DNA of 64,000 bases from Candidatus Rifleibacteriota bacterium (GCA_015232575.1 JADFZL010000001.1:124001-188000), one strand, 5' to 3'. Shown: positions 586-28,475, numbered from the stretch's first letter. Translations and numbers: made by a program. Notes: generated by a model not told the origin, from the letters alone.

Positions 586-1383
586 ATGAATGAAAAGATG
601 CTTGTTTCACTGCCGATAGATAAAATCAAGGCAAATCCGGGACAGCCACGAAAGAATTTCAGGGAAGATGCGCTTGAAGATCTTGCACAGTCGATTTCTG
701 AAAATGGCATTCTACAGCCGATTCTGGTCAGAAAAATTGGTGAAACTTACGAAATAATTGCAGGAGAAAGGCGTTTCAGAGCTGCAAAGATTGCAGGACT
801 GAAGGAAATTCCGGTAATAATACGTGAATTTGACGATAGGGAGACTAAGCTTGCGGCGCTGATAGAAAACATCCAGAGGGAAGATCTGAACGCAATTGAA
901 GAGGCAGAATCTCTCAAGGAAATTCTTCTGAATTATGGTCTGACACATGATCTGCTTGCAAAGCGCCTGGGAAGAAGTCGTTCAGCAATAACGAACAAGC
1001 TCAGGATTCTTCAGTTGCCAGACTCGGTTAAACAGATGATTTACGATGGCAAGCTCTCAGCGGGACATGCAAAAATGCTTGCCGGACTGGATTCCGAAAG
1101 TGAAATCAGAAGCTGGTCAAAAAAGATAGTAAAAAAGAATTTATCGGTATACGAAACTGAAAAACAGATATCGAGTGAAAAATCTGACACCAAAACTTCA
1201 AAGAGGAGTAATAACTTGCTCAGTGACCCACATTTAAAACGAACAGAACAATCTCTAATGGAAGCATTGGGTGCCAAAGTCCGCATTAAACAGGGCAGAA
1301 AGAGAAGTACACTTGAGATTGAATTCTACGACAAAGACGATCTTGAACGCGTAGTCGAAAATATTATCTGCATTAGAGATTAG
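586..1383 (+). CDS. parB: ParB/Spo0J-family chromosome partition protein
   Basis: A 265-residue ParB. The N-terminal domain has the arginine-rich CTP-binding motif GERRFRA (residues 60-66) and the preceding ILQPILVR box, followed by the ENIQRED box near residue 93. The central helix-turn-helix (about 115-145: LAKRLGRSRSAITNKLRIL) would bind parS. A short C-terminal dimerisation region follows a Lys/Ser-rich linker. Length is normal for the family. ParB loads on parS and spreads as a CTP-dependent clamp in chromosome segregation. The usual parA partner is not adjacent in the window; the next P-loop protein downstream (2345) is only distantly ParA/MinD-like. The ATG is preceded by a modest GCAGG ribosome site. 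Confidence 0.93.
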   Translation: MNEKMLVSLPIDKIKANPGQPRKNFREDALEDLAQSISENGILQPILVRKIGETYEIIAGERRFRAAKIAGLKEIPVIIREFDDRETKLAALIENIQREDLNAIEEAESLKEILLNYGLTHDLLAKRLGRSRSAITNKLRILQLPDSVKQMIYDGKLSAGHAKMLAGLDSESEIRSWSKKIVKKNLSVYETEKQISSEKSDTKTSKRSNNLLSDPHLKRTEQSLMEALGAKVRIKQGRKRSTLEIEFYDKDDLERVVENIICIRD

Positions 1384-1397
1384 CTGCGAGGAATTTT

Positions 1398-2285
1398 GTG
1401 TACGTAAAATTTTGGGGAGTCAGAGGTTCTGTGCCAGTTCCTGGGAAAGACACGATCTTTTTCGGAGGGAACACAACCTGCGTCGAAATTCACACCTCCG
1501 ACAACCAGCTGATGGTTATTGATGCTGGAACCGGAATCAGACTTCTCGGCAATGAGCTTCTCAAGGGTGATTTCGGCAAAGGGGCTGGGAATATGCACCT
1601 TTTCTTCACCCACACCCACTGGGATCACATTCAGGGCTTTCCATTCTTTATGCCGGCATATATCGGTGAGCGTGACGCAAATGGAAAAAGAGTGCCCGGA
1701 ACGTGCAATCATCTGAGTCTCTACGGTGCTTCAGATGTTGACAAAAGGCTTGATGCAACGCTCAGAGGGCAAATGGAGCATTTCTATTTTCCGGTTGATC
1801 TTGAATATCTTAATGCCAGCATTTCATTTCATTCTCTTGAGGAAAATTCAGTAAAACTGGGAAACGTACGTGTTTCAGCAAGAAAGCTCAAGCATCCTAA
1901 TGGTGTTCTTGGCTACCGTTTTGAAGATGCAGGAAAAGTCTTCGCCTTTGCTACAGACTGTGAACATCCGGAAGATGGAAGCATGGACCCGGGAATTCTT
2001 GATCTTGCAAAAGATGCTGATGTTCTGGTCTATGATGCGCAATACACTCCTGAAGAATATAATCCAGCACTGATTGGAAAAAAAGGTCTCAGCAAAGTCG
2101 GCTGGGGACATTCAACGCCTGTTGAAGGTGCAAAAATAGCAACTGTATCGAATGTAAAAAAACTTTTTCTAACGCATCATGACCCGCTTCATAATGACGA
2201 CCAGATTCACAACATGGAGAAAATGGCCCAGGAGTTGTTTCCAAATTCACTTGCTGCTTATGAAGGTCTTGTTCTGGATATTTAA
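1398..2285 (+). CDS. MBL-fold metal-dependent hydrolase
   Basis: A metallo-beta-lactamase fold protein of 295 residues. The N-terminus (MYVKFWGVRGSVPVPG, then GGNTTCVEI) matches the phosphodiesterase/RNase Z-like branch often annotated as a cyclic-phosphodiesterase-type MBL protein. The metal site is visible as HTHWDH near residues 71-76, with later His/Asp ligands in FATDCEH, in DAQYTPEE and GHST, and in a final LTHHDP. The start is a GTG with CGAGGA seven bases upstream, 14 bp after parB, so the two genes are probably cotranscribed. The substrate cannot be told from sequence. Confidence 0.85.
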   Translation: MYVKFWGVRGSVPVPGKDTIFFGGNTTCVEIHTSDNQLMVIDAGTGIRLLGNELLKGDFGKGAGNMHLFFTHTHWDHIQGFPFFMPAYIGERDANGKRVPGTCNHLSLYGASDVDKRLDATLRGQMEHFYFPVDLEYLNASISFHSLEENSVKLGNVRVSARKLKHPNGVLGYRFEDAGKVFAFATDCEHPEDGSMDPGILDLAKDADVLVYDAQYTPEEYNPALIGKKGLSKVGWGHSTPVEGAKIATVSNVKKLFLTHHDPLHNDDQIHNMEKMAQELFPNSLAAYEGLVLDI

Positions 2286-2344: not shown

Positions 2345-5300
2345 ATGAGCAAAAGAGCCTTTTTAACACCGCTTTTCATTTTTGGTTCCACCCATACCGG
2401 AGTTGGAAAGTCTTCGTTAATCTCAAATTGGACAGTTTTTCTATGTTCTGAGGGTAAAAGAGTTGCACTGCTCGACTTCAATGCACCATTTCCATGGCAA
2501 CTGAGATGTGCTTTCCCCAAAAACATGCAAATCGAGGAAATGAGTGATCTTTCTGAGATTTCTGGTGCCAACTGGGACAAATTTCAAAAAAATCTCACTC
2601 TTGAAACGTCGAACAACATAGTATTTTTTCCCTGCGGGTTATTAAAATCACCTGAAACCATTTTTTCGGAAGTTGGTCTGAAAAGCTTTCTGATGTATCT
2701 CAGTGCCAATTTCGATTTTATCATCGTCAATCTTCCATCTGGACTGAAAGCCCTTTCTGACGCCCGAAAGATATTTAACCAGAAGAACGGTCGCGGAGAA
2801 TTCAAGTGTCTGGGAATTCTCTGTACAGGAACAGATTCCAAATCGGTAATTTATCTTGACCAGCTTGTTAGAAAGAATCCGCTTTACAGCCATCTTGTAT
2901 CAGAAAATCTTCTGATTACATTCAATCAGCTTTTCGAAGAAAAAAATGATGAAGAACCTGCAGAAAAAACATATCCGGTTCTTGAAATCAAAAAGCTTCT
3001 GAACATAAAACACTTTTTCCAGATTCCCTATTTACAGGAAATCCAGAAACAGCCGTCGTTTCCGGAGCCTATCGTTTTAAACGACCCTTCTGCAATTCGA
3101 CAGACAATTTCTGCGTTTAATCGAAAGACCGTTGAAGCGTTTGAAAATACAGATTTTGATCTTGAAGAATTCAATGATACTAAATTTGAACCTGTTTTTG
3201 AAGATGAGCGCTATGAACTTTATCTTCCGATTGTAAACAGACTGAAACAAATTCTTGCATCAAATCTTCTGGTTAAAACAACGACTATTAACCATTTCAT
3301 CGAAGAAAAAGATGAGGCACTCAGAGTCATTCTCAGGACTGGAATTAATACGCGACCTGTTTTGAATTTCTATTTTCCCGGTAAAATGCACATAAAAATG
3401 ACCAAATCGAAGCCAGCTTCGCTCTTTGAAATATTTGAACAGGGAAGTTATGAAATCAAACCGGTCGAATTAAAAGAATCTATTCCGGACATGAATCCGG
3501 GCGTTGAGGCAATTTTCGAATTTCCTCTTGATTTCAATGTTTTTTCATCATGGAGTTCCCTTTTTGAATTGAATCAAGGAAATTCGCTTGTTCTTCGGAG
3601 ATACAGCGAAAATTTTGCTGACAATCCAAAATTAGAGGATATTCCATCATTAAATCACACTCTTGGAATTGAATCAGAAAAGCGTGCAAGAATTAGTTTT
3701 TCGGATGACCAGGGGCAGTTAAAAATTTCTGATACTTCGCTTAGTGCAAGCACTTTTCTTTCATTTATTCAGAAGTTTTCAATGAACCCAAATTTCTCGA
3801 CAATGTACAAACTGAAAAAAATCAAGAGAAGTGGAGTTGCTTCATTCAGAGCAAGCAAATTAGCATTGATTTTTTCGTTCTTTCGAAACAGAGAGATTGC
3901 ATCAGCAATTCCAGCCGTTATTAAAGCTTCCGGCACAAAGAACAATATATCAACATCAACAAGTTTCTTTAATCAGGCGCCTTCAGTACAATCTGATTAT
4001 CCGTCCTTTAATCTTCCAAATATTATCAGACCATTATTTAATCACGAGAAAGCTGATTTTTTCTCTGAAAAGATCACTCATGCTTTAACCTCTGTAAATA
4101 ATGTTGAAATATCCATTCCTGCAAGAAGTGTTTTTCATCATGAAAACGACAATTCCATTCTTAGAGCTTTAAAAAGGCTTGCGCCAAAAGACATTCTCAT
4201 TAATGAAAAGAGGCATCCGGCAGAATTCAAGCCAGAGTGTACTGCTCCCGACAGCACATGCCTGTTTATAAATGCAAAAGCCGGAAATACTGAAGAAAAA
4301 CAACCGGAAAAAAGTTTCAGAAAAACGATTTCTTTAATTCCGGGAAACTTCGGGAAAGCAACTTATCGCTGTCCGGATTACGAAGAGAAAAATGCTGAGG
4401 TGGCGGGGAAATCTTTTGTCCGCAAAAAAATTGATTTCTGGGTATTGAAGATGTTTTCCAATTCAAATACCTTTCTTACAAGTCTTTCCTTTTGTGAAAA
4501 ACCGCCTGCAATCATTTGTACATTTCAGAGAAGTGATTTGCCAGTAATATTCTCCAGGAAAATATTTTCAGATAGAAATGAAACGGAAAAAGGGCTTATT
4601 ATTCCCGATCTTCTCAAAAGTGAGAAACCCGATCTTCAATTGCACTGTGACAGCAAATTTTCTGATTTATCTTTCAACAGTTTAATTCAACAGGTTGAGC
4701 AGAATAAGTTTCCTGTTCATATTTCCCTGGAAAGAACTAATTTATCTCACACCATAATTGTAGTAAGAAATGTCTCTGATAGCACATCTGAATCAGTTCT
4801 TACATATTTCCCCAGTATTCAGGCCAAATGCATTCTGGAAATTTTCAGCCATCAGAATTTTTCATTTTCGGACAATGAATCATCTGGCACATTTTACTTT
4901 TTAAATAATATTCAATTTATCACTACTGACGATAAATGTACAACTGGTAACGTATCTCTTAATGATGAACTTCGAATGTCTGCGGAGCCTCCATCAAACA
5001 TTGCTTTAATTGTAGCTAAAGCTGAGTTGTCTCCGCAGTTTGCACAAGATTTGATTTTCAATTCAGAAAAGTTTTTCAGACCTGTTCCACAGAAGCCGCT
5101 TTCAATGCCAGAATCTGTTCAGGCAAGTCTTTCTTCGCATGTTCTTCCGGACAATTATCAGATTGAATGTCTTCTGCGCAAAGACTTATTTATTGGTAAT
5201 TATTTATTTCAGGCAAATATTCTGCCGTCTAATTCATTCATCAGAGATCAGAATTTTTCATGTGAGTCATCAGATGATATTTTTTCACTTCTCGGCTTCT

Positions 5301-5914
5301 TCTCTTCAGAAGAGTGGTTTCATTCATCTTTTTACAATATGTCGGTAGTTATTCCGGATATTACTCCCACTCAGTCATTTGCAGCATTCAATCCGGAAAA
5401 TGAGCTGAAAAAACATATTCCATGGAATCCAGTAATGCCTGTGAATTCTCTTGAAAGATCTAATTTAATAGAATTATCAATTTTTCAACCAGCAGAAAGC
5501 ATTCCTCAAAATGGGAAGTCTAAATTTTCTGAATTTGCTTTTTCACCGGAATTCTTTTCTGAAGAGTCTCCGGATCTAAATTATAATTGGGATAATCATA
5601 CAGAGTTTCTCTTTTCTGATCTATATTTCAAGCTGAAGAATTATTTTCACTACATTAAAGAAAGTAAAATTTATAAAATTCTGAGAAAATCATCGAAGTA
5701 CTCACTAGTTTTCAGGTCTCCGGCAGAAAAATCAGAAAAATCGATGTTTTTTGCTGTTCAGCCCACTGAAAAACAATACCAGTTATCAGCCAAATTGGGC
5801 ATTTCATCTCCAGAAAAATTCAAAGTCAGCAAGTTAAGCGTGAAAGACTTACTGAGCGCCGGGTTGAATGTTAAAGAGAAACTGATTGACCGTCTGAACA
5901 GGCTTGTAAAATGA
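2345..5914 (+). CDS. Giant protein A: degenerate MinD/BioD-like ATPase head plus ~900-residue unknown region
   Basis: 1189 residues. The first ~270 resemble a SIMIBI-class P-loop ATPase: Walker A GSTHTGVGKSS (14-24), a following VALLDFN strand, and FDFIIVNLPSG where MinD/ParA proteins have a DxPxG switch. The ParA/MinD signature lysine position is His17, and the DxPxG aspartate is Asn, so hydrolysis may be altered. Residues ~280-1189 match nothing I know: Phe/Ser/Asn/Lys/Pro-rich, without Cys patterns, signal peptide or TM helices, and ending in a short amphipathic tail. The gene starts 59 bp after the MBL gene and its stop overlaps the next start (ATGA at 5911), indicating translational coupling with giant B. 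I do not assign a function; an uninterrupted frame of this length in AT-rich DNA argues it is expressed. Confidence 0.85.
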   Translation: MSKRAFLTPLFIFGSTHTGVGKSSLISNWTVFLCSEGKRVALLDFNAPFPWQLRCAFPKNMQIEEMSDLSEISGANWDKFQKNLTLETSNNIVFFPCGLLKSPETIFSEVGLKSFLMYLSANFDFIIVNLPSGLKALSDARKIFNQKNGRGEFKCLGILCTGTDSKSVIYLDQLVRKNPLYSHLVSENLLITFNQLFEEKNDEEPAEKTYPVLEIKKLLNIKHFFQIPYLQEIQKQPSFPEPIVLNDPSAIRQTISAFNRKTVEAFENTDFDLEEFNDTKFEPVFEDERYELYLPIVNRLKQILASNLLVKTTTINHFIEEKDEALRVILRTGINTRPVLNFYFPGKMHIKMTKSKPASLFEIFEQGSYEIKPVELKESIPDMNPGVEAIFEFPLDFNVFSSWSSLFELNQGNSLVLRRYSENFADNPKLEDIPSLNHTLGIESEKRARISFSDDQGQLKISDTSLSASTFLSFIQKFSMNPNFSTMYKLKKIKRSGVASFRASKLALIFSFFRNREIASAIPAVIKASGTKNNISTSTSFFNQAPSVQSDYPSFNLPNIIRPLFNHEKADFFSEKITHALTSVNNVEISIPARSVFHHENDNSILRALKRLAPKDILINEKRHPAEFKPECTAPDSTCLFINAKAGNTEEKQPEKSFRKTISLIPGNFGKATYRCPDYEEKNAEVAGKSFVRKKIDFWVLKMFSNSNTFLTSLSFCEKPPAIICTFQRSDLPVIFSRKIFSDRNETEKGLIIPDLLKSEKPDLQLHCDSKFSDLSFNSLIQQVEQNKFPVHISLERTNLSHTIIVVRNVSDSTSESVLTYFPSIQAKCILEIFSHQNFSFSDNESSGTFYFLNNIQFITTDDKCTTGNVSLNDELRMSAEPPSNIALIVAKAELSPQFAQDLIFNSEKFFRPVPQKPLSMPESVQASLSSHVLPDNYQIECLLRKDLFIGNYLFQANILPSNSFIRDQNFSCESSDDIFSLLGFFSSEEWFHSSFYNMSVVIPDITPTQSFAAFNPENELKKHIPWNPVMPVNSLERSNLIELSIFQPAESIPQNGKSKFSEFAFSPEFFSEESPDLNYNWDNHTEFLFSDLYFKLKNYFHYIKESKIYKILRKSSKYSLVFRSPAEKSEKSMFFAVQPTEKQYQLSAKLGISSPEKFKVSKLSVKDLLSAGLNVKEKLIDRLNRLVK

Positions 5915-8900
5915 AAAGAGTTTCGAAGAAATTGTCTGGCGGGCAAATAAAACCGCAAATTCAAAGCGTCGAAAAAATTCCGCTATTTCACAAGGCAGAG
6001 TTTACCGTTAGCGCTCCCGCAATTAATACTCCTGAATTGAAAAAGTCGTTTATTTTTTCTACTTCAGAGAAGTCAACATTTAAAATCAAAAATAATCTGC
6101 CTAAGTCTGAATTTGCTTGTTTTTTTCAAAGTTTGAGCTCTTATTCTGAAAACAGGCTTCAGTTCATTTCACACGAATTTGGGTTTCTTCTCTTTTACCC
6201 TGCGAGCTCATTTATTAAGGCCGGTTTTTCTGACTTAGCATTAACATCAATCCCATTTAATCCGGGCTTTTCTTCGGGCTTGATAAATCAAATCCCTACG
6301 GAGAAAAAGACAAAAAAATGTGCGGAAAAGTTTGAAGATGAATTAGGAAATAATTTCATAAGTGAATTTGCAAGTGATTTTGCTGAGGTGTTTGTTTCTA
6401 GTACTGACAGTTCATCTGAATGCAGCAAATTTACTCAACCTGACATTCAATTTTCAATTAAAGACGAAGTATCGCATGATTTATTGCGAAGCAAAATATC
6501 TCCTTCTGAAAGCAACAATTCCGATGAATCGATAACCAAACTTCCTTTTCAACAAAATGCTCTAAATCTCAGAGGAAGCAAGACAATTTATCCTGATAAC
6601 GCTCAGACGACTTTGAGAAGATTCAGAACTTTTGGAACGCCGTCTGCCCGATTGTTTCCTAAGTCTTCAGTTCCAGCCGGCAATACCGATTTCCCACGTC
6701 AGGCAAAGCTTATTTCATCATCAAGAGACATTTCTTCTGATAAAAAACTTTCAATCTCTGAAAAAATCTTCAATTTTGAAGTCACCTCAGAATCACCAGA
6801 ATTGTCAACGAAACAAATACCATTCTGTAATGACCGGAGTGCAAATGATCATGATCGAAAGAAAAAAACCAACTTACCTGGCAAAATTGCACAAAATCTG
6901 CCCACCAGATTTCTTTCTGCCGGAAATGAAAAAAATAATCGATTATCAACATTTTCAAAAGACATTTTTGAAGGCTGTACAGCTCCTCTAATCAAGGAGA
7001 AGATTCTGATACCATTTTCTTCAGCTATCAAAGATAAAAACACTTCTGAATGGGACTTTGTGACTGTAATAGAAGAAAGTTTGTCTCGGGAAGAAATACG
7101 ATATGATTTTTTTTATACTCAACCAAAAGCTACTGTGGAAAAGGACTTCTTACGAAAAATCAGACTATCTGAATCGGCAAATCTGAATTTTCATTTGTAC
7201 CGTCCTGAATTGGTCTCAAAGAACTATTTTCCTGTGACACAGAAGTTGAACAATCTTAAGCATTCACAGCTCATTATTTCATTCAAAATTCATGGCTATC
7301 TGATTGTAAATTCTGCAATGACTTTTCTGATGAACGATTTGCCATATAAAAATGCAACATCCGGAAGAATTGTCTGCAAGCAAGTTAAAAACATCTCAGA
7401 GATAAGCGATTTTGAAATCGTTCAAAGAGAAATAAGTAAAAAAAATTCAGAAAAAGATCTTAATTTCAGTAAAATAAAAAAATCAGAAGATTTTATTTCC
7501 GCAGCAGCATTTACTTCAGAAAAAAACATTAAATTTACTTCAACAAAAGCTGAATTCAAATTTTGCGGAAACAAATCGCTTGCTGTTAAAGAGCCATTAC
7601 TTGAAATCGATAGTTTTTTACATTCTGAACATTATTATCTAAATTGTCTTAACAGTACAAAGTTTTCAAAACGTTTTTTTGACAGGTGGAATTTTCGAAG
7701 AGAGTTTGTTCCATTCTATAAAAAGAGTGAAGTTTTTTCTCTCTGTTTTTCAGAAAAGCCGCAGGAACATTCTTTTGTCAGCAAACTTTCTGAGCTTAGA
7801 AAAACTTGTTTTGGATATTTCCAGGTGAGTGAAACTCAAAGTCCCACGAAAAAGTTCTGGCATTCATCTGCAAAAGTTGCTTTATTTGAATCATTCAAGT
7901 ATCCAAAGAATTTTCTGTTTCCAGCACAAAGAATTGCCCACAGAAAATCAGGATTTTCGAACATTCTGTTTTTCCTGAATATTTTCAGGAAGAAATCGGA
8001 CAAATTCTTTTCTGATAATGCTAAATGGCAAATCAAGCCTACAACTGAAAAAGTGAAATTTGTCTTTCATGAATCGATTTTCCCTGCAAAGGAATGCTTC
8101 AGGAACATTTTAATTAACCCTGTCAGAAGAATAAATATCAAGTTACATCAATCATTATCAAGTTATTTTTCACGAAGCAGAATAATTAAGATTCCGTTTA
8201 TTGCCTACCACAGATACAGTTTTTCAAGGGGAAGAACAGGAAAATCTGACTTAAAACAAATTTTCTTTCCCAATGCCAATGTTGAAATTGAAAAATGTTT
8301 CTCTGACATTCTTCAGGGAGAAGCAAATCCATTTCTTTTCCTGAGTGAAAAGAAACAAAGATATGCAATTTCCAGGCTTTCATTCTGCGTTTCAACTGAT
8401 TATTCTAACATCATTTCTCTCTCTAAAGTTAATCATTCAAAGTTTAGTCCCTTCGAGCTAAAAGAAGTAATTCAAGAAAATGCTGAATACAATAGCGACC
8501 TTATCTACACTTTTAAACCATCTTACCGAAAACCTTTTCTGCCATTGATTCAATCAACTGATTCTGTCAAAAACATTCTCAGCAAAGATAATTTTTCTCC
8601 TGCATTCAATACTTTCTGCAATATTTCATCTTTTGAAATACATTCAGATGAATGCAATGCTTTTGAAAACAATCAGCCAATAACCTTTTCAGCTGTTGAA
8701 AGGGAAGTTAATAAATCAAAATATCCTCTTTGTCTGCCTCTGCACGAATTAACGTGTTTTTCAGGTGATACTGGAATTTTTACTCAGGCTGAATGTGAAG
8801 AAAATTTCTGTATTCCTCTTCCAAACGAAAAACCAATGGTACCGGGACATTCAGAATTCTCGAATGATACCGCCGAACATAAACTGCAAAAGGAAGAAAG

Positions 8901-9285
8901 GGCGTTTTTCCTGGGAATGCCTTCAGTAATTCAATTAAAAGAGAATTTCCGCAACATTTCTCAGGAATTCATTAAAATAGGCATTGCTGAAGACCGCGCA
9001 GTAAAGAGCAGTCCAGGCATGTTTGAAGAGCTAAAAATAGTTGAAGCACTTGATTCATCAGCCGGCAGGAGGAAAGTTCAGTTCGCACAGAAATTTCCGG
9101 AGGTTTCTGCTGAAAAGGAAAAAATTAAAGCAAAATCGACTGGAATAATAATGTTGCCGCGCCTTATTCAAACCGGAAAAAGTGAATCAGAAGACAAAAT
9201 TATTAAATACAAGGATCAGTTGACAGTTGCACTTGCACAAGCGAGAAGGCTTTTCGAAAAAATACGGAGTCCACGTGCTGAATGA
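5911..9285 (+). CDS. Giant protein B, unknown family
   Basis: 1124 residues, no recognised domain. It starts in the ATGA overlap with giant A and ends in a second ATGA overlap with giant C. Composition resembles A, C and D: rich in Phe, Ser, Lys, Asn, Glu and Ile, with frequent short hydrophobic stretches broken by Pro or Ser. It has no signal peptide, no convincing TM helix and no metal or nucleotide motif. The last ~90 residues change character, becoming Lys/Glu/Ala-rich and helical (roughly from ISQEFIKIG to KIRSPRAE). A cytoplasmic structural or scaffold role is one guess; nothing in the sequence proves it. Confidence 0.8.
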   Translation: MKRVSKKLSGGQIKPQIQSVEKIPLFHKAEFTVSAPAINTPELKKSFIFSTSEKSTFKIKNNLPKSEFACFFQSLSSYSENRLQFISHEFGFLLFYPASSFIKAGFSDLALTSIPFNPGFSSGLINQIPTEKKTKKCAEKFEDELGNNFISEFASDFAEVFVSSTDSSSECSKFTQPDIQFSIKDEVSHDLLRSKISPSESNNSDESITKLPFQQNALNLRGSKTIYPDNAQTTLRRFRTFGTPSARLFPKSSVPAGNTDFPRQAKLISSSRDISSDKKLSISEKIFNFEVTSESPELSTKQIPFCNDRSANDHDRKKKTNLPGKIAQNLPTRFLSAGNEKNNRLSTFSKDIFEGCTAPLIKEKILIPFSSAIKDKNTSEWDFVTVIEESLSREEIRYDFFYTQPKATVEKDFLRKIRLSESANLNFHLYRPELVSKNYFPVTQKLNNLKHSQLIISFKIHGYLIVNSAMTFLMNDLPYKNATSGRIVCKQVKNISEISDFEIVQREISKKNSEKDLNFSKIKKSEDFISAAAFTSEKNIKFTSTKAEFKFCGNKSLAVKEPLLEIDSFLHSEHYYLNCLNSTKFSKRFFDRWNFRREFVPFYKKSEVFSLCFSEKPQEHSFVSKLSELRKTCFGYFQVSETQSPTKKFWHSSAKVALFESFKYPKNFLFPAQRIAHRKSGFSNILFFLNIFRKKSDKFFSDNAKWQIKPTTEKVKFVFHESIFPAKECFRNILINPVRRINIKLHQSLSSYFSRSRIIKIPFIAYHRYSFSRGRTGKSDLKQIFFPNANVEIEKCFSDILQGEANPFLFLSEKKQRYAISRLSFCVSTDYSNIISLSKVNHSKFSPFELKEVIQENAEYNSDLIYTFKPSYRKPFLPLIQSTDSVKNILSKDNFSPAFNTFCNISSFEIHSDECNAFENNQPITFSAVEREVNKSKYPLCLPLHELTCFSGDTGIFTQAECEENFCIPLPNEKPMVPGHSEFSNDTAEHKLQKEERAFFLGMPSVIQLKENFRNISQEFIKIGIAEDRAVKSSPGMFEELKIVEALDSSAGRRKVQFAQKFPEVSAEKEKIKAKSTGIIMLPRLIQTGKSESEDKIIKYKDQLTVALAQARRLFEKIRSPRAE

Positions 9286-10769
9286 ACAGGAAAAATCATC
9301 TTGTTGGTCGTGGATTCCGAATAGTTCTTCCATTTTCAGAAAAAGTCAATATTCCAGTTCACAGAATTCGGAGTTTTACTTCCTCAACGAAACTTATCAA
9401 CAAACCTCTTATTCTTTGGGGAAAAGCCTGGTTTGCTCTAAAATGTCCTTCATTCTTCAATGCCAGCGTTCTGGAAATGGTTGTACAAAATCATCCTCAT
9501 CTGGAACACAGTGAATTTCCCCTGCCCCATCAACCCACTTTTGAAAACCTTCCCTATAATGATTTTCAATTACTTTTTAAATCAATTGATCAAATCAAAA
9601 CCTGTTTCAGACTTAGCTCAAAACTACTTACATCAACTGGTACAAACTCCTCTGACTCAATTTATTCAGGTAATACAAGACGAAATTACAATTCATTCAA
9701 AAATACATCCGAAATCTTCATTAAAACTGCGTATGATTTACTCCAGGAAAATGAAAAGCATTTCAGCATTCTTTTTCACGATAGCTTTTACTCAAAACAC
9801 TTTCTCAGCATTTCCAGAGCGGGAATCAACGCATTAAAGAGCAGCTACGCAGAAAACAGGTGTATAAAACCCTGTTTCGGAATCGCCTCGAATGAGCTTT
9901 TGAGAAGCGCCGAAACTTTTTATAATTCAATTTTGTCACGAAATCCCAAGAGCAATTACAATTCTTTCAACAATGACTCTGAAATCACCATTAAGCCTGG
10001 ATATGAGTTACTTAAATCAGCTGATAAAAATTTCGACATTATTTTTCATGAGGGCTTTAACCCGAAGCACGTTCTCATCCTTTCCAAATCTACATTCTGC
10101 GCCTTAAAGAATTATTACGCTGAAAACAGAAGCTACTCTCCTGAGATGTATTCAGAAAATCGAAAAGAGCGATTTTGGCATCAGGAGCGATATTGTTTTA
10201 ATATGTCTTACAAGGAATTTTATGTTGGAAATTCTGAAGCTTTCAAACTGCTTCTATCCAATAAATCATTTGGTTCAAATAGAATTATTACTGGCGACAT
10301 GTTTTCTTTTTTTTCATTAGGAGTAAAAAGGGAAAATCATTTTTCATTGGATTATGAACGGGAATGCAGTGTTCAAACAGACAGAATCACCCTTAAAAGT
10401 AGTCCGAAAATACCTGATTTTTTACAATACAGAGATTTCTATACTTTTCAATTATTCTTTTTTAACTGGAATATGGTATTATTTCATAGTTTTTCTGAAA
10501 TGGAAAATGCGAATCAGTTGTCTGGATGTCAATATGGATACACGAAACCTCGGATGTCTGCGGCAAGCCATTCTGCAGACAAATTTGCGCTTCAATCTGG
10601 AAAATTCATACTTCAGGAATTTCCTTTACGGGAAAGGCATACCAGTCGAAATATCAAAATGACGATAAATAAAGCAAAAATGCCGACAAATATTTTTATT
10701 CCAAATCAGTCTCAGGGCAAAAGCACTTTTAATCTTGAATACAAACTGCGGTTACAAAAAGCAGGTTAA
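9282..10769 (+). CDS. Giant-protein cluster member C, with an internal 90-residue duplication
   Basis: 495 residues, no family recognised. It starts by ATGA overlap with B. Residues ~135-224 and ~225-314 form a tandem duplication with exact 90-residue spacing. Both copies begin NYNSF, share SEI.IK..Y.LL, FH..F..KH and ALK..YAENR, and agree at 32 of the first 59 positions by eye. Each copy seems to begin slightly earlier, in a weaker S..LL.S stretch. The rest is Phe/Ser/Asn-rich like its neighbours. The frame closes three bases before the start region of giant D. Confidence 0.78.
   Translation: MNRKNHLVGRGFRIVLPFSEKVNIPVHRIRSFTSSTKLINKPLILWGKAWFALKCPSFFNASVLEMVVQNHPHLEHSEFPLPHQPTFENLPYNDFQLLFKSIDQIKTCFRLSSKLLTSTGTNSSDSIYSGNTRRNYNSFKNTSEIFIKTAYDLLQENEKHFSILFHDSFYSKHFLSISRAGINALKSSYAENRCIKPCFGIASNELLRSAETFYNSILSRNPKSNYNSFNNDSEITIKPGYELLKSADKNFDIIFHEGFNPKHVLILSKSTFCALKNYYAENRSYSPEMYSENRKERFWHQERYCFNMSYKEFYVGNSEAFKLLLSNKSFGSNRIITGDMFSFFSLGVKRENHFSLDYERECSVQTDRITLKSSPKIPDFLQYRDFYTFQLFFFNWNMVLFHSFSEMENANQLSGCQYGYTKPRMSAASHSADKFALQSGKFILQEFPLRERHTSRNIKMTINKAKMPTNIFIPNQSQGKSTFNLEYKLRLQKAG
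9684..10130 (+). repeat. Tandem 270-bp (90-codon) duplication inside giant protein C
   Basis: Two in-frame copies begin at 9684 and 9954 (both AATTACAATTC). The first 59 codons of each are clearly alignable and the remainder of copy 2 diverges. Copies differ at many third positions and many residues, so the duplication is old and the repeat unit appears to be under protein-level constraint. Confidence 0.8.
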
Positions 10770-10771
10770 AT

Positions 10772-13700
10772 TTGAGGGAAAAATTGGATAATAACAGCAG
10801 AATATTCGAAAAGAAGTCCGAAAATGAAAAAATTAAGCTTGTCAAAAGAAATCCTGGGCAAGCTTCCAGATCTGTTTTTCTCGGAAAGGAAATTCACTCG
10901 GTTGTCAGAGGAAGGCCTCAGTTCCCACTCTGCTTTCAAAGCGATTCAGATATTCCAGATTCAACATCTGCAGTTGAAACTTCCCCGTCTGAAGAAAACG
11001 AACCAAATGCAACCCTGAGTTTTCATCCGTTAAAATGGCCTGTTCAGGAAATTTCAATGCTGGATTTCTCAGAATTAATTCTTTCCAGCAAAAATGAAAT
11101 AACAGATGTTTTCAGAGGAGTTCTGAAGCCGCTTATAAGTAATATTGTTACAAGTTCACCTGAAGAGAATTTTTTTTATGAGAATGAAGGTGTTTCAAAA
11201 CTCACTGGAATAAAGCCTTTTTCAGGCCAGTCGTTCATTTTTACTGATAAGCCTGTATACGAAATGGATCCAATTTTTCCTGAAGATTCTCACTCGAAGG
11301 TCTGTGGAATAAACAAAAACTGCATTCGAAAAGATATTTCAAAATGTGAATCGAAGGCATTTCTTTTATCTCATGATTTGAATTACCCTACAGACTTGCC
11401 TTTTCCAGAACTTCCTGACGATTTTCACACTGAAATATCTTTGAATACGTTGCTCAGGGACTCTTTAAGAGAAAGAATTCAGAAAATTTACAATTATTTC
11501 TTTTCGATTGACTCGTCATGCAGGAATTTCAATTTCAGTGAACTTTCAGGATATCGTATTAAACCGATTGAGCATTCTCAGTTGCGTTCAGAAGAAAGCA
11601 GAAGTTATTTTATTCACTTTGCGGTTTCTGATTTTCGCGATTCAATAGTTGATAAACCCAGAATCGGAATTGTTGATTTAATTGAAAATTCTGCACAAAA
11701 ACTTCATGCGAAGATTCTCATGGAAAATATGTATCCACGGCATTCGAGAATAATACTTCCAGAATATGATTTTAAAAAATTCAAATCTTTTGTTCCTGTC
11801 TGGTCTTATTCAAAACAGAGGATTTTTCCGGTTTATATCAGCATTACAAACATTTCAGTGATGGGAAAATACCGACCATTTCACCTTTTCCAGGCAGATA
11901 AAGGAATAAGTGAAATATCAACTTTTACTTCAGTAATAAAGAATCAAAATGATTCACAATACCGTGTATGGCTGATAACAAGGAAAATCAACAATTTTTC
12001 AATTAAAAAGCTCAGAACAGTGAGATTTTCTTCATTGTTTTTAAAACAAAAACAGACATTTAAATCTGTTGAACTGGAATCCATTTTTCTTGTAAGCAAT
12101 TCAAATCTGGAATTACCGGAAATATCTGCTTTGCTTAATAAGAATGCTCACTCAAAAAGCATTTTAATCAGCAATATGAACCGTTCAAGCAGGGAATTTC
12201 CGGAGAAGTTGAAGAAATATTTTCTTTCAGTTGATTTGCCGTCAGGCTTTGAATTTCAGGAAAAGAATTTCAATTTCACTCCTGTTTTCGGAAAACAACT
12301 TTTCAAGCCTGATTTTGAAGGAAAAAAGAAGAGGAAGTTTTCAGCATATCTTAAAAAGCAGATCGAAACAATATCGCTTCCTAAGTATTATCCAGTAACC
12401 TTAACCAAAACAGGAAAAAAAGCTTTTACTCCTCAACCGACACCGATCCAACTGTCGGGAAAAGTTTCGATGCATCTTCCTCATTCACCTTTCATTATGC
12501 CTGTCTCAACACAAATAAGATCAGAAGCGCTGATATGTATTCCAAAAATGGCGCAGGAAGGTAAAATTACTCCTTTTCAGTTCTCAACAAAAGCTTCTGC
12601 AGGCAAAAAACCTGCTGCTCTTACCAGACTCAGGCTCACTCTGGGAAAAGATAAAAAATTCCTGTCTCAGCCTTTCAAGTGGCTCTTCAGAAAGATTTCT
12701 GCAGACAGAAAAATTATCAGGGACATCAGAATTGAATTGCCGCTGGTTGTTAAACGCGGCAACATGCCATCTCTTCCGAAAACAGAAACGATTACAAATT
12801 TCATTCCCTTCGGAATGGAATACGTTCCAATCGCCTTTGAAAATCCTGTAAAAACATTGTATGAAAAAATTGATTGCAGCAAATTGAGATTTAACATCAG
12901 AAAAAACCAGGAAAAAACAAGCGATTCAGAAAGCTTTTTCAGATTGAACTGTGCGTTATCAGAAAATCCAGACACATCATTCAATATTTTCAATGTACAA
13001 TTTGAAGCGAACTATTTTCCGACAGCAAGAATACAGCAGCTTGAAAATTTTGTATTTACGGGCAACAAAGAAAAATTATTGCTGCTTGATTCAAAAGATA
13101 TTTTCAATAATCGGGCATCCGGCTTATCAATTAACCGTTATTGGAGGCACTATCCTCCAACAAGCCTGCGATTTCCGAAAAAATGGCTGATAAATTATCC
13201 GAGTCTTTTCGAAATAGTCAAGCCATATTATGGATACTATGAAAACGCTTGTACAAGCAAGAGAACACCTTTTGAGCTTGATCGACCTGCGATGGGATTG
13301 CTTTCATCAAAGTTGTCTTTTGGAAAGCTTTCTTCCGCGTTCGAAAATATTCTACATCAGAATGTCCATCTGTCAAAAGTTTTTGATTATATTGAGACAT
13401 CAGAATCAGCAGTTGACAAAAATATTAAGCAGATCACCTTTCATAAAGAAAAAATATCTCCATTAACGAATAAACTTTCGGCCATATCGCCATTTCAGTT
13501 TCTGCAGGATTTTTCAATGGAACTGAAAGAGAGCGCCGCAAAGCAGCCTTCAGAAAAAAAGCTGCGGTTACATGGAAAACAGATAAAACCATCGCTGCAA
13601 AACAGCAGCGTGTTTCCGATTTCCGTTGCTGCCAGAAAAGCAATTACTGAAAAAACCAGTAGCGTACCACGTGCTGAAAATGCTGCAAAAAAAGACAAAT

Positions 13701-15271
13701 ACTTATCTTCAGTCATGGGTTCAAAAATTCAAATCACAGGTAATTACTCTTTCGCTGATAACAACAAAAATCTTTCATTTTCACTGTTTTCACGCGAAGG
13801 CCCAAGGAGCTTTTTCAGAATACCAGACGATTTCAACTCTTCGCTTATGCCTGACACAACTCGTACAAAAGAAACCCCTCAGGAATTGTCTGACAATCAT
13901 CTATTTTTATTGTACAATACTATATCTGTCGATTCTATAAGTTCTTTCAATCAAAAACCCTGGTCATTTGAAAGACAAAACTTGCATTACGGCACCTTTT
14001 CCCCTGAATATTTTGATAAGCACACTCCGGACAATATTTCTTTGTCTCTCAGAAAAAACTGTTTTCATATTTACAAAGCAACCGACAAAACTTCAATATT
14101 GCTGAAGAAGGTCGAATTTGAGCTTGTTCAGATAAGTTCGAAATTTTCAGGTGTGCCAATTGTCTGCCCATCTTACGGTTTTTTCCCGGAAAAACACGGT
14201 CAGCTGGTAATTCTATCGGGTAACAAAGAGCTGAATGCGATAATAGAATCAGTTAATGCCCCTTCAGTTCAATTGATTCCCGAAGGAAATTCAAGGGAAA
14301 CATCTGGATGGTCGCGTTTTTCAGAACGGTGTACTGAAAGAGAATTATTACTCTCTTCAGAAAATATGAGCAGTTTCAAACAATCTGAAGATTTATTTTC
14401 AGTTCCGGAACCCTGTTATTCTGCTTCAGAAAAGCTTCCAGCATTCAGTTCCAGAAATTTCATACATTCTCTGGAGAAGGCAGTTCAATATTATCCGCTT
14501 GAATTTGATGCCTGGTATCTTCTCAATAATTCGGAAAAAGCTTTTTTTTCTTACCAGCAGTTATCTAGAAAATACGATTTGAGTAAGTCATCTGCTTTTA
14601 AGTTTTGTGAAAATCGCCTGATCAAAAATAGCGAAGAAAATACCAGCAATGAAATTTTGCACTCAAGACACGAAATGTTCCACAAATTCTCTGTGCCGCA
14701 ACTTCCAGATTCAGTTCAGGTAGAAAAAGAATTCCGGTCTGATATCAGAATCCCGGCTTCAGTAATACAGGCTTCAGAAATGCTTTTCGACCACAGCAGC
14801 ATTGATTTATCAGACAGCAGATATATCACTGAAAATAAAACTCGTGAGATAGAGAATTCAATAATCACAGTGAGAGTTGAATTTAATGAATTTCATTTTA
14901 TTAACAGTGTAAAAGAACCCAAATTTTATGAGTATACCCGGAACATTTCGTTCAAAATTCCGGATTTTTCTGATCACATTCAAAAAATTCCTGAAAATTT
15001 ACCATTTCACGAAAGAAAGATTCCAGGTTTCAGTATATTCAAAGACGCTGATCCACAGCAGTCCTGGAAGCTTTATGAAGGAATATTCCAATACAAACGG
15101 GAAAAATTTGAAAATAATACTTATTCTGAACACTTTAAAACAATCGCAGGCTGTGATAATGTCAGAATAAGGAACTGGGATAATGGAAAAATTGATTTTC
15201 CATTTTTTGCGGTAACAGACTGGCTTGAAATAAATTCCAATAATAGAACCTGGATGTTGATAGAGAATTGA
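10772..15271 (+). CDS. Giant protein D, unknown family
   Basis: About 1499 residues, the largest of the four giant proteins; no recognisable domain, signal peptide or TM segment. Composition matches A-C (Phe, Ser, Lys, Ile, Asn, Pro). A more basic, Ala/Lys-containing stretch lies near residues 530-640. The start is uncertain. TTG 10772 has GCAGG six bases upstream, but TTG 10784 has GAGGG (10774-10778) five bases upstream; I kept the longer form. The gene follows C by two bases. A separate promoter for the next gene begins ten bases after the stop, so D probably ends the giant-protein transcript. Confidence 0.8.
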   Translation: MREKLDNNSRIFEKKSENEKIKLVKRNPGQASRSVFLGKEIHSVVRGRPQFPLCFQSDSDIPDSTSAVETSPSEENEPNATLSFHPLKWPVQEISMLDFSELILSSKNEITDVFRGVLKPLISNIVTSSPEENFFYENEGVSKLTGIKPFSGQSFIFTDKPVYEMDPIFPEDSHSKVCGINKNCIRKDISKCESKAFLLSHDLNYPTDLPFPELPDDFHTEISLNTLLRDSLRERIQKIYNYFFSIDSSCRNFNFSELSGYRIKPIEHSQLRSEESRSYFIHFAVSDFRDSIVDKPRIGIVDLIENSAQKLHAKILMENMYPRHSRIILPEYDFKKFKSFVPVWSYSKQRIFPVYISITNISVMGKYRPFHLFQADKGISEISTFTSVIKNQNDSQYRVWLITRKINNFSIKKLRTVRFSSLFLKQKQTFKSVELESIFLVSNSNLELPEISALLNKNAHSKSILISNMNRSSREFPEKLKKYFLSVDLPSGFEFQEKNFNFTPVFGKQLFKPDFEGKKKRKFSAYLKKQIETISLPKYYPVTLTKTGKKAFTPQPTPIQLSGKVSMHLPHSPFIMPVSTQIRSEALICIPKMAQEGKITPFQFSTKASAGKKPAALTRLRLTLGKDKKFLSQPFKWLFRKISADRKIIRDIRIELPLVVKRGNMPSLPKTETITNFIPFGMEYVPIAFENPVKTLYEKIDCSKLRFNIRKNQEKTSDSESFFRLNCALSENPDTSFNIFNVQFEANYFPTARIQQLENFVFTGNKEKLLLLDSKDIFNNRASGLSINRYWRHYPPTSLRFPKKWLINYPSLFEIVKPYYGYYENACTSKRTPFELDRPAMGLLSSKLSFGKLSSAFENILHQNVHLSKVFDYIETSESAVDKNIKQITFHKEKISPLTNKLSAISPFQFLQDFSMELKESAAKQPSEKKLRLHGKQIKPSLQNSSVFPISVAARKAITEKTSSVPRAENAAKKDKYLSSVMGSKIQITGNYSFADNNKNLSFSLFSREGPRSFFRIPDDFNSSLMPDTTRTKETPQELSDNHLFLLYNTISVDSISSFNQKPWSFERQNLHYGTFSPEYFDKHTPDNISLSLRKNCFHIYKATDKTSILLKKVEFELVQISSKFSGVPIVCPSYGFFPEKHGQLVILSGNKELNAIIESVNAPSVQLIPEGNSRETSGWSRFSERCTERELLLSSENMSSFKQSEDLFSVPEPCYSASEKLPAFSSRNFIHSLEKAVQYYPLEFDAWYLLNNSEKAFFSYQQLSRKYDLSKSSAFKFCENRLIKNSEENTSNEILHSRHEMFHKFSVPQLPDSVQVEKEFRSDIRIPASVIQASEMLFDHSSIDLSDSRYITENKTREIENSIITVRVEFNEFHFINSVKEPKFYEYTRNISFKIPDFSDHIQKIPENLPFHERKIPGFSIFKDADPQQSWKLYEGIFQYKREKFENNTYSEHFKTIAGCDNVRIRNWDNGKIDFPFFAVTDWLEINSNNRTWMLIEN

Positions 15272-15333: not shown

Positions 15334-16110
15334 ATGAATTATTTGTGTAAAAGTGATACCGGCCTTGTCAGACAGAATAACGAGGACTATGTTGAAAGTC
15401 TTGAGATGAGCTGGTGCAACTCGTCAGGTTTTTTTCAGCGTGTTGTCCTTCTCCTGCTTGCAGATGGAATGGGCGGGGCTGCTGCTGGAGAATTTGCATC
15501 AATGCTTGCTATTAAAACCACAAAGCAGAAAGCGCTTGAAGGCTTGCTTCACAAATCTCCTGAAGATTTTCTGTCCACAAATCTTCAGGATTTTTTCAGA
15601 GAATGCTTTATTAAAGCCAATAGAGCTATTTACGAAAAGGGCACTTCTGAGCGTGAATTCAGCGGAATGGGCACAACAATTGTTGCCGGCATGGTTCACC
15701 GGGACATATTAACTCTTGGGCATGTTGGCGACAGCCGTGCATATATGCTCCGGGGAAACAAATTCAGACAGATTACCAGAGATCACTCGTTTGTACAGGA
15801 ATTAATTGACAGAGGCGACATAACTCCTGATCAGGCAAAGATTCATCCAAACAGAAATGTAATTACGAAAGCGCTGGGCGTTTCACCTGATGTTGAACCT
15901 GAATTGCAGCAAATTCTTCTTCAGAAGGATGATCTGATACTGTTCTGCACAGATGGCCTGAATGGCTACGCTGAAGACTCAGCAATTGAGCATAATTGCA
16001 AAGAATACAAAAATATTGGACTGAATGAAGTAGCTGACAGACTTATTGCTGCTGCCAAGCTCGGCGGCGGCGGCGACAACGTATCTGTCGTTTTGTACAA
16101 CCACATCTGA
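15334..16110 (+). CDS. PP2C-family serine/threonine protein phosphatase
   Basis: 258 residues, a complete single-domain PP2C (Stp1/PrpC type) without TM segment. All metal-binding motifs are visible: an N-terminal SDTGLVRQNNEDY, ADGMGGAAAGE, the GMGTT...GHVGDSRAY block, TRDHSFVQELIDRG, CTDGLNGY and the final GGGGDNVSVVL. It would dephosphorylate Ser/Thr proteins in the cytoplasm, but no cognate Ser/Thr kinase lies in the window. It is the first gene after the promoter at 15281-15309 and is 21 bp from the coiled-coil gene. Confidence 0.93.
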   Translation: MNYLCKSDTGLVRQNNEDYVESLEMSWCNSSGFFQRVVLLLLADGMGGAAAGEFASMLAIKTTKQKALEGLLHKSPEDFLSTNLQDFFRECFIKANRAIYEKGTSEREFSGMGTTIVAGMVHRDILTLGHVGDSRAYMLRGNKFRQITRDHSFVQELIDRGDITPDQAKIHPNRNVITKALGVSPDVEPELQQILLQKDDLILFCTDGLNGYAEDSAIEHNCKEYKNIGLNEVADRLIAAAKLGGGGDNVSVVLYNHI

Positions 16111-16131: not shown

Positions 16132-18147
16132 ATGGCCGTTTCTGAAGTTTTACCAAAGAAATTTGAACAGATTCTCAAGCATAGAAATCACATTATTGAG
16201 CTGTTACAAGTTGAACTGGAAAAAACCAAAAAGAATCACGAATCTGAAATCAGCACCCTGAAACATCAGCTTTCAGAGCAGAATCAGATCGTTTTGCCAT
16301 CTGATTCTGAGGAAAAACTCAGTTTACAGAAAGAAATTTCACAACTCAGAGAATTGGCAGAAAAATATCTGTCAAATCAGGAAGAACTTCAAAGAGAAAT
16401 TGTACAATTTAAAAAAGCTGCTCAGGAAGACCTTTTCGAGAAAGAACTACTGCAAAATCAGCTGAAAAAACTCAGTGAAGTAAAGGAAAACAATCCTTCT
16501 GCTGAAGAAGACCTTCGAAAACAGCTTGAAAAGTTGAAAGAAGCCTCTGAAATAAATCGTAATTCTCAAGAAGAACTTCAGCAGAAAATTTCTTCCCGTG
16601 AAAAAGAAATAAGTGATCTTCAGGAAAAGCTTAATCTGGTTGGATATGAAAGAAACCTCGCCGAAGAAAAAATTGATACTCTTACAAGTGAAATTGAGTC
16701 TATAAAAGCTGAAGCAAAAAGTCCTGAGGCAATTGATATTACCTCTTGTCAGGCAGAATTCAGAGAACTGGTTGAGCGGCTTCAGCAGATTGAAACAGAA
16801 GAAGAGAACAGAACTGAAGAACTTAATAAGCTTCGAAGCGAAAATCAGAGTTGTATGGCACTGCTTGAGTCCAGAACTTCCGAATTGGAAAAGCTGCGCA
16901 CTCAAATGCAAATCAGCCTCCAGGAACTGGATTCCATAAGAAAACAAAACAGAGAGCTTTCTGTTAATGTTAACCGACTTGAAAACAAAAATCAGTCGCT
17001 TACTGAAAACGTTGATTCAACACGAAGAGAAAGCAGTGTCCTGAAAAATGAATACGGAATACTGAAAAGCGAAGTTTCAGTTAAAGATGAGCAGATAAAG
17101 TCTTTTGAAAAACTGGTCTCAGAAATTAAAAGTGAACTTAAATCTGTTAAATCCGAAAAGGAAAAACTTTCATCTGAACTTCTGGAAAAAAGCAGACACA
17201 GCAATGCAGTAATCAACGAAAAAAACCGTACTCTGCAGGAGCGCGAAAATCTTCTCAGAAAGCTGAATGAGTTTGAATCAGAAATAGCTGATCTGAGAGC
17301 CAGAAATTTTGGATTGCACAGAATTATTTTTGAATCACCAAAAATTATCAGAAAAGAAATTGGTGTACAGAAAAACAGTATTTCCAAAATTGAATCGGAA
17401 AGCATTTCATCTGAAGAAATGGATATTCATCTGCCATTTCTTTTCCCTGACAGGCTTCCGGGCATTATTCGAATAAATCATGTTTATTCGAGAAAACCTC
17501 AAATCATCAGGACAGAAAAAATATCCCGAAATTCGTTTCCGGTAAGAAGAAGTCATACCTTTCTGAAAACTTTTCTGGAAAACGTTCCGGCAGCACCTGA
17601 ACGACTGAGAAATATTGCAGCTGGTTTTCAGATCGCAGAAAACAGATTTACTGCTGAAAACGAATATTATGAACTTTCCATATCTGAAGAAAAACATTTC
17701 CCGCATAGATTCGGTGTAATTTTTTATCCATCAACAATTTCAACGTTCAGCAGACCATCTTCTGATCTGCCTGTAAAGCTTTCACATTCACGAATTGAAA
17801 TAGACCTGCACATTAATAATTTTAACTTTTTTATCAGTCATCTGATTACTGATTCCAAAATCAGAAATGCAATGCGTCTGCAGAAAGTAATAAAATGCAA
17901 TGAAAAATTTTCCAAATCTGCAAAAAAAACTATTGAAAAATATGAGTTTAAAACATCAGTTAAATTCTCAGATTCATTCTTCCGACAAAGAATAGTGGAA
18001 TCTGTAAAAAAAATTACCTTTGAAGAAAAAACCTTTTCGTTGTATCTTCCCAAAGGCAAGCTTGGTATGTTAATGAAGAGTATTGAAAATTCAATATCAT
18101 CACTTCATTCGCGACTTGATTCGGCAAAAACGAGTGAACAGGAATAA
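16132..18147 (+). CDS. Coiled-coil protein with a giant-protein-like C-terminal region
   Basis: 671 residues. Residues ~10-395 are continuous heptad-rich coiled coil (Glu/Lys/Leu/Gln with no Pro-rich breaks), long enough for an extended rod. From about residue 400 the character switches to the Phe/Ser/Arg/Ile-rich style of giant proteins A-D (for example IHLPFLFPDRLPG, VIFYPSTISTFSRP), and the end is again helical (KLGMLMKSIENSISSL). No signal peptide or TM. It sits between the PP2C and TPR genes in one operon. The chimeric make-up is the best physical link between the giant proteins and the phosphatase module. No function is assigned. Confidence 0.82.
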   Translation: MAVSEVLPKKFEQILKHRNHIIELLQVELEKTKKNHESEISTLKHQLSEQNQIVLPSDSEEKLSLQKEISQLRELAEKYLSNQEELQREIVQFKKAAQEDLFEKELLQNQLKKLSEVKENNPSAEEDLRKQLEKLKEASEINRNSQEELQQKISSREKEISDLQEKLNLVGYERNLAEEKIDTLTSEIESIKAEAKSPEAIDITSCQAEFRELVERLQQIETEEENRTEELNKLRSENQSCMALLESRTSELEKLRTQMQISLQELDSIRKQNRELSVNVNRLENKNQSLTENVDSTRRESSVLKNEYGILKSEVSVKDEQIKSFEKLVSEIKSELKSVKSEKEKLSSELLEKSRHSNAVINEKNRTLQERENLLRKLNEFESEIADLRARNFGLHRIIFESPKIIRKEIGVQKNSISKIESESISSEEMDIHLPFLFPDRLPGIIRINHVYSRKPQIIRTEKISRNSFPVRRSHTFLKTFLENVPAAPERLRNIAAGFQIAENRFTAENEYYELSISEEKHFPHRFGVIFYPSTISTFSRPSSDLPVKLSHSRIEIDLHINNFNFFISHLITDSKIRNAMRLQKVIKCNEKFSKSAKKTIEKYEFKTSVKFSDSFFRQRIVESVKKITFEEKTFSLYLPKGKLGMLMKSIENSISSLHSRLDSAKTSEQE

Positions 18148-26565: not shown

Positions 26566-27768
26566 ATGAAAAAACGCTTAATATTCTCCTGTCTTTTATC
26601 TCTGGCAACATTTCCAGGAATTTCTCCAGGACAGCCATCTGCAGCCAAATTACCTGAAATTGCCAGAGCCAGACAGCTTGTTCAGGAATGCAATTACGAC
26701 GAGGCCATTCAGGCAGTTCAGCATCTACTTGAGAATCCGGAATATTCAAGCCATGCAAAAGTTGAAATCGGGAAAATAAAACTCCGAAAAGCTGAAAATG
26801 AACTTTCGAAAGCACTGAGCAGTTTCAATGATGCCGCAACAACGCTTAGCCAGGGTCTTGAAGAAGGCGGCGGTGATGATGCAGAACGTCCGAAACTTAT
26901 GTATGAACTGGCTTCGATTTATCACGATAGAATGAATAATATCCCTCTGGCTGTGTCATGCTATGAAAGTATTGTTAAAGATTATCAGAATTTCATAATG
27001 ATAGACAAGGTTACATTCAAGCTGGCATCCTGCCTTGAAAGTCTGGGCAGAACAGATGAAGCAGCAGCATATTTCAGAGACATTGTTGCAAAATATTCCT
27101 ACAGTGAATTTTTTAAAATTGCTCAGGCAAAATTGAATAAAGCTGCTCCGGGAACAAGTCTGGCGCAGGATGCAATTGAGGCTCAGGAAAAAACTCTGGA
27201 AGGTGCAAAAAACGATTCTCAGGCAGCAAAAGCTGCTTATGAACTTGCGAATCTCCATTCCAAACAGGGAAACAAAAAACAGGCACTTGAAGAGTACAAG
27301 AAGATTTCAGCTGAATATCCGAACTCAGACGAGGCTAGAAGAGCAATGCAAAAAATGGCTGATCTTCTTGATAAAGATAAAAACTATTCCGAGGCTGCTT
27401 CTGTTTTAGACGATTATGTGACAAAGTATCCAAATGATCCGGATACAGAAAAAAATCTTCTTGAACTTGGAAAAATCTACGAAAAAAACATGCAGGATTA
27501 CAAAACAACTACGAAGGAAGGACGCATCGTATACAGAAAATCGACTGAAAATGCGCAGAAGGCACTGGAATATTACGAGAAGGTCACCGAAACGTATCCA
27601 GACCAGGATTCTTCGGCTGAGGCATTTCTGAGAAAAGGTGAAATTTACGAAAATTCGATAAAAGACCCTGAGCAGGCAAAGCGCCAGTATCAGGAGTTTC
27701 TGAAGCGGTTTCCCGATCATGCGGAAGCCGGCCGAGTTTCTGAAAAGCTTAAAAAACTTGATGAATAG
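26566..27768 (+). CDS. Exported TPR protein
   Basis: 400 residues with a Sec signal peptide at the N-terminus (MKKRLIFSCLLSLATFPGIS). The rest is TPR-like helical pairs of the type found in YbgF/BamD-like periplasmic proteins (for example AAYELANLHSKQGNKKQAL.EYKKISAEYPNSDEA and KRQYQEFLKRFPDHAEA). A strong GGAGGAGG ribosome site precedes the ATG. It is followed 8 bp later by the HD-GYP gene. Probably a scaffold in the cell envelope; partner unknown. Confidence 0.85.
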   Translation: MKKRLIFSCLLSLATFPGISPGQPSAAKLPEIARARQLVQECNYDEAIQAVQHLLENPEYSSHAKVEIGKIKLRKAENELSKALSSFNDAATTLSQGLEEGGGDDAERPKLMYELASIYHDRMNNIPLAVSCYESIVKDYQNFIMIDKVTFKLASCLESLGRTDEAAAYFRDIVAKYSYSEFFKIAQAKLNKAAPGTSLAQDAIEAQEKTLEGAKNDSQAAKAAYELANLHSKQGNKKQALEEYKKISAEYPNSDEARRAMQKMADLLDKDKNYSEAASVLDDYVTKYPNDPDTEKNLLELGKIYEKNMQDYKTTTKEGRIVYRKSTENAQKALEYYEKVTETYPDQDSSAEAFLRKGEIYENSIKDPEQAKRQYQEFLKRFPDHAEAGRVSEKLKKLDE

Positions 27769-27776
27769 GGGTTAAT

Positions 27777-28430: not shown

Positions 28431-28475
28431 AGTTGGTTTACCAAATGAAATAGTATTTACTGGAGGAAAATTCAA

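Follow-up and report, generated by a model that had tools for sequence, protein, structure and literature searches.

The closest described relatives of the locus reported here are the ParA/MinD positioning ATPases with their ParB partners, and proteins with tandem tetratricopeptide repeats (TPRs) such as O-GlcNAc transferase and SPINDLY. An N-terminal GLGRGL-type motif of ParB binds and activates ParA (PMC12462528). In O-GlcNAc transferase and SPINDLY, an Asn ladder formed mostly by repeat position 6 contacts the backbone of the substrate (PMC9715652). We analyzed a stretch of 64,000 nucleotides (the window) in the 7.05-Mb genome of a Candidatus Rifleibacteriota bacterium (GCA_015232575.1, JADFZL010000001.1:124001-188000). 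Here, four contiguous giant genes, A to D, lie between a ParB gene and the gene for a very strongly conserved protein of 20 TPRs, TPR712. Our preferred reading, which we hold tentatively, is that the giants would be extended scaffold chains, gripped by the TPR superhelix and with a nucleotide-binding head of A for an anchor.

Gene order and distribution of the locus

The genes form a co-directional run from ParB (from 586) through a metallo-beta-lactamase (MBL)-fold hydrolase, A-D, a PP2C phosphatase and a coiled-coil-like protein to TPR712 (to 20306), followed by a SpoIIE-HAMP gene. The features, with positions counted from the start of the window, are:

586-1383, plus strand: ParB/Spo0J/Noc-like protein (ParB_N 1.5e-36, HTH_ParB 2.7e-33, ParB_C 2.4e-9)
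1398-2285, plus strand: MBL-fold hydrolase, RNase Z-like (Lactamase_B_2 9.8e-16; RNase Z 1y44 8.9e-11)
2345-5914, plus strand: giant A open reading frame (ORF), 1189 aa
2345-3343, plus strand: head of A, residues 1-333, a degenerate MinD/ParA fold plus a small alpha-beta-beta element
3344-5911, plus strand: tail of A, residues 334-1189, without predicted structure, conserved in length
5911-9285, plus strand: giant B, 1124 aa, from its ORF and ATGA overlap, in the window's genus only
9282-10769, plus strand: giant C, 495 aa, from its ORF and ATGA overlap, genus-specific by position
10772-15271, plus strand: giant D, 1499 aa, TTG start, ortholog of the single second giant of other genera
12401-13294, plus strand: best-conserved stretch of D, residues ~544-841, from the phmmer match to G002 and the conservation maximum of the G004 ortholog
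15334-16110, plus strand: Stp1-type PP2C Ser/Thr phosphatase (NCBIfam Stp1_PP2C_phos 2.2e-71, above its cut-off)
16132-18147, plus strand: coiled-coil-like protein, with weak coiled-coil Pfam matches
18168-20306, plus strand: TPR712, 712 aa, 20 tandem TPRs, ultraconserved

The giant frames, of 1189, 1124, 495 and 1499 codons (~4300 in sum), were found exactly as the initial annotation had described them, with ATGA overlaps, read directly at 5911 and 9282, joining A to B and B to C, and with 2 bp between C and D. Their composition is rich in F, S, K, N, I and L. No Pfam, PHROG or NCBIfam family matched A-D at its cut-off, and the sole meaningful family match is a sub-threshold Pfam match of A to the ParA/MinD-type AAA_31 (E 0.0017); this bears out the claim that there is no known domain beyond an ATPase-like head in A and leaves the A tail, B, C and D without a family. 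A common origin of these four parts was rejected, as profile comparison found no homology among them, and a likeness between the C-terminal helices of A and B (hhalign E 0.013) was too weak to be accepted. Also rejected was a phage or viral origin, with no match in PHROG and no credible fold match in BFVD.

In f1, the window's taxonomic family, the module is present in 21 of 24 genomes and entirely missing from three. D (identified by profile) and ParB occur in the same 21 genomes, including those in which A is broken by contig ends; A and TPR712 are each present in 18, the shortfalls being due to fragmented assemblies. In the three genomes without the module (G007, G008, and G013), all of ParB, A, D, and TPR712 are missing; the assembly of G008 is 91% complete and the other two are 64-70% complete. 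The module was not found in seven other families of the phylum, in whose 16 genomes a search for A returned short generic P-loop matches only and the D profile had no match. More broadly, the A profile found nothing at E ≤ 1e-12 in the 358 non-family genomes among 382 searched, with the top four candidates scored per genome.

Across the genera of f1, the order ParB, RNase Z-like MBL, A, D, PP2C, an optional coiled-coil protein and TPR712 is kept where contigs allow. The MBL gene is situated between ParB and A and the PP2C gene downstream of D in relatives too, and the coiled-coil-like protein ranges from 472 to 919 aa or is absent in some genera. In G002, a few extra genes, one transposase-like, are inserted between MBL and A. 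GC content at third codon positions (GC3) of the same genes spans 0.18-0.90 within this one family, with gene order kept (loci L104 in G012 and L113 in G018). A and D overlap by 4 bp at stop and start in eight relatives, as expected of the operon-like unit first proposed, and are separated by 9-11 bp in three. As a unit of four giants, the proposal holds in part: A and D occur throughout the family, with B and C between them only in the window's genus. A two-sequence profile of B retrieved G000 and G001 only from the phylum, and G001 has at C's place a 395-aa ORF with no BLAST match to C and no detectable sequence likeness. The conserved unit is ParB-MBL-A-D-PP2C-(coiled coil)-TPR712, larger than the four giants, and B and C are genus-specific additions. 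Co-occurrence with downstream genes was likewise confirmed for PP2C and TPR712 but not for SpoIIE. The SpoIIE gene was dropped as a module member, since in G001 and other relatives it does not neighbor TPR712; in the window, the longest frame of the SpoIIE-HAMP protein (20263-23280, plus strand) overlaps the end of TPR712.

The D orthologs, the single second giant in other genera, have 1149-1615 aa. Residues 544-841 of D match residues 474-774 of the G002 protein colinearly (phmmer, E 2.4e-12), and a D profile made without G001 picks up the G001 protein at E 3.6e-14. Conservation in the G004 ortholog is maximal at ~650-800.

Drifting chains and the conserved groove of TPR712

A tail and D drift fast, yet they are open, colinear, and under purifying selection. 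Outside the genus, identity to the window's A is 16-21%. Ratios of nonsynonymous to synonymous substitution (dN/dS) were taken from G014 and G020, a pair with dS estimable in all parts, and are rough because dS is near 2; they rise from 0.014 (TPR712) through 0.055 (A head), 0.06 (PP2C), and 0.13 (A tail) to 0.22 (D). Because unbroken frames and gene order persist in relatives across the whole GC3 range and the ratios for A tail and D are this low, A-D are coding beyond chance, as the initial annotation had supposed. In 12 of 13 genomes, the part of A past residue 500 measures 662-730 aa (695 aa, coefficient of variation 2.3%, excluding G002). One could suppose from the very fast drift and the lack of domains that the giant frames are spurious or decaying. 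This is highly improbable given the dN/dS values, the constant order, the retained stop-start coupling, the frames intact at both extremes of GC3, and the narrow spread of A-tail lengths. Overall, the initial interpretation is partly supported: the giants do not fall into known families of their own, dN/dS of A and D is well below 1, and both recur in relatives. Their assembly into one large cytoplasmic complex or filament is conjecture.

Composition of the A tail and D tracks genome GC (Pro ~4-20%, Lys 0.7-13%, Arg 2-14%), and their hydrophobic fraction stays constant at about 38-43% despite this drift. At short spacing, hydrophobic residues in the giants avoid each other, with no period of helix or strand type. 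D is basic everywhere, with a net charge of +32 to +103 in 14 genomes. AlphaFold gave a predicted local distance difference test score (pLDDT) below 50 throughout A 334-1189 (~860 aa), where a C-terminal helix is predicted at 1166-1188, and below 50 at 1198 of 1200 positions in a D ortholog; the alignments comprised 16 (A) and 13 (D) divergent sequences.

TPR712 has the opposite character. Its identity is 76-95% across 18 family genomes, and its dN/dS is 0.008-0.014. Position 6 is invariant in all 20 repeats among nine orthologs and is Asn or Lys in 18 of the 20, so that tandem TPRs carry Asn/Lys at this position along the groove in the manner of an Asn ladder. In TPRs generally, repeat positions 2, 5, 6, 9, 12, and 13 line the groove, and we defined the groove of TPR712 by them. 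Among 12 orthologs, 109 of 120 groove positions are invariant (91%), versus 54 of 140 on the convex face (39%) and 119 of 160 structural positions (Fisher p 1.7e-19 for groove versus convex face and 5e-4 for groove versus structural, values that are indicative only for related sequences). The protein is acidic, with a net charge of -23 to -31.

We propose that the locus produces an intracellular scaffold in which A and D, joined by B and C in the window's genus, would serve as long chains, not preserved in the way of ordinary folded domains. Selection would retain their length, their ~40% hydrophobic content, the positive charge of D, and colinear short motifs. The acidic TPR712 superhelix may grip the giants in its groove, along extended stretches, via backbone contacts, and the neighboring PP2C phosphatase may regulate assembly. 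Holding by the backbone would account for a frozen groove beside drifting clients. The link between TPR712 and the giants is suggested by their constant neighborhood, by a frozen groove of a kind that could bind a backbone, and by clients that keep length and not sequence.

Several points weigh against this proposal. With 13-16 divergent sequences, low pLDDT is no proof of disorder. A tails have a positive FoldIndex (mean 0.09) and a hydrophobic fraction equal to that of folded neighbors, unlike typical disordered protein. The A tail of G002 is ~190 aa longer than the others (889 aa past residue 500), and the A tail is nearly neutral (+2) in the window and at -10 in G010, so that for A the charge complementarity with TPR712 fails in both. 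TPR712 could bind other clients, and an unrelated essential role might account for its conservation.

Some of these observations would fit large folded proteins of undescribed, fast-evolving families, for which structure prediction fails because alignments are shallow. The positive FoldIndex and hydrophobic content at globular level speak for such proteins, as do the conserved A-tail length and a colinear D core that contains motifs. We consider it unlikely, since composition follows genome GC very widely, hydrophobic residues lack helix or strand periodicity, and almost no secondary structure is predicted for most of the A tail and D, although the same alignment folded the A head.

The head of A and its ParB neighbor

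Residues 1-270 of A are predicted with pLDDT mostly of 60-90, and a small element continues to residue 333. Foldseek matched the head to MinD (6riq, E 1e-7) and ParA (8ray, 1.3e-7), and the A family profile matched MinD in the PDB (4v03, E 1.4e-5); AlphaFold, Foldseek, and the profile are thus agreed on a MinD/ParA fold with a P-loop. The Walker A Lys is invariant in 15 of 15 A homologs. The signature Lys of the deviant Walker A motif is kept in one of the 15 and is otherwise Arg (nine), His (two), Gln, Ser, or Ala. In place of the Walker B Asp, all 15 have Asn. From established knowledge of ParA/MinD enzymes, we infer that the head may bind nucleotide yet should not run the usual ParA/MinD cycle of dimer hydrolysis. 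Within the proposed scaffold, it would bind nucleotide and probably dimerize, a standard ParA hydrolysis cycle being unlikely, and could act as an anchor or an assembly switch. A literature search for ParA proteins with disordered tails found nothing relevant.

In every region contained in one contig, ParB is encoded upstream of A, usually two genes off. Only the sister family f3 has a canonical Soj, with 58-59% identity to a Bacillus-type Soj, beside ParB, and this ParB bears the N-terminal GLGRGL/ALGKGL motif. This motif is absent from the ParB of f1, including that of the window, and from the ParB of f5, and no Soj was found beside ParB in f1. In f5 (loci L238-L240), ParB also has no ParA-activating peptide and no neighboring Soj, though f5 has no A, D, or TPR712. 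With Soj and the peptide both missing beside ParB in f1 and f5, ParB is probably uncoupled from Soj in the window's family, judging by these sequences. The window contains no parS at up to 3 mismatches and family relatives show no consistent parS cluster, so that a parS-based link of the locus to partition was not established.

These features raise the question of whether A is a lineage-specific substitute for the chromosome-partition ATPase that works with ParB, the giants being a scaffold that positions the partition complex at the nucleoid or pole. The position of ParB, the presence of Soj and a motif-bearing ParB in f3 where the window's family has neither beside ParB, and the strongly basic D all point this way. 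We regard the idea as doubtful but as a live rival: besides the missing parS sites, 14 of 15 homologs are without the signature Lys of the head and all are without the Walker B Asp, and f5 is without Soj, peptide, and A. Because f5 has lost Soj and the peptide and has no A, Soj loss need not involve A.

The MBL and ParB genes could also be the nucleic-acid parts of an RNA- or DNA-handling particle to which the basic giants contribute by binding nucleic acid. The constant place of both genes in the cluster and the net charge of D in all 14 genomes are consistent with this. Such a particle is nonetheless very improbable, as the score of the MBL protein falls far short of RNase Z level (NCBIfam RNase_Z 1e-18, 67.5 bits against a cut-off of 293), no RNA- or DNA-binding domain was detected in A-D, and neither the window nor G010 has a basic A tail.

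Elsewhere in the window, downstream of the giants, genes for a TPR_6 protein, an HD-domain protein, and a 316-aa protein of no assigned function lie at 26566-29426; in relatives they adjoin ParB on the opposite strand. RpoC (34408-40530, minus strand) has 2040 aa, far more than the roughly 1400 aa usual for RpoC, and matches a biotin-lipoyl-like domain near residue 1725.

Comparison with described systems

A bolder form of the scaffold proposal is that the locus encodes a wholly new bacterial scaffold, in which an ultraconserved superhelix of 20 TPRs threads giants that are inherited by length and physical make-up and not by sequence, anchored by a ParA-fold protein without the catalytic signature, in lineages that have lost standard ParA-ParB partition. 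Taken whole, this is possible but less likely than not, and we put it forward with reserve. The scaffold proposal, if true, would provide a bacterial case in which selection acts on how long giant chains are and on their physical make-up, with the groove of the partner frozen, and it would show the fate of ParB once Soj and the activating peptide are lost.

With the ParA/MinD positioning ATPases (MinD, Soj/ParA, MipZ, FlhG, and BcsQ), A shares the fold of its head, as seen by profile and predicted structure, the invariant Walker A Lys, and clustering with ParB. It differs in that the signature Lys is mostly Arg and the Walker B Asp always Asn, in the fusion of the head to a tail of ~860 aa, in translational coupling to a second giant, and in a neighboring ParB without the canonical ParA-activating peptide. 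Unlike ParABS, the f1 locus lacks a canonical Soj beside ParB, the activating peptide of ParB, and any consistent parS cluster nearby.

For the giants, a comparison of how they would work, with no claim of homology, can be made with the central-region proteins of the synaptonemal complex (PMC8598163). The giants are bacterial and have no predicted coiled coil; like those proteins, they appear to be selected for length and overall make-up while their sequences diverge. TPR712 differs from O-GlcNAc transferase and SPINDLY in having no catalytic domain, its 20 repeats making up nearly the whole protein, and in a position 6 that often alternates between Asn and Lys. It resembles them in its many tandem TPRs, in the prevalence of Asn/Lys at position 6, and in its conserved groove.

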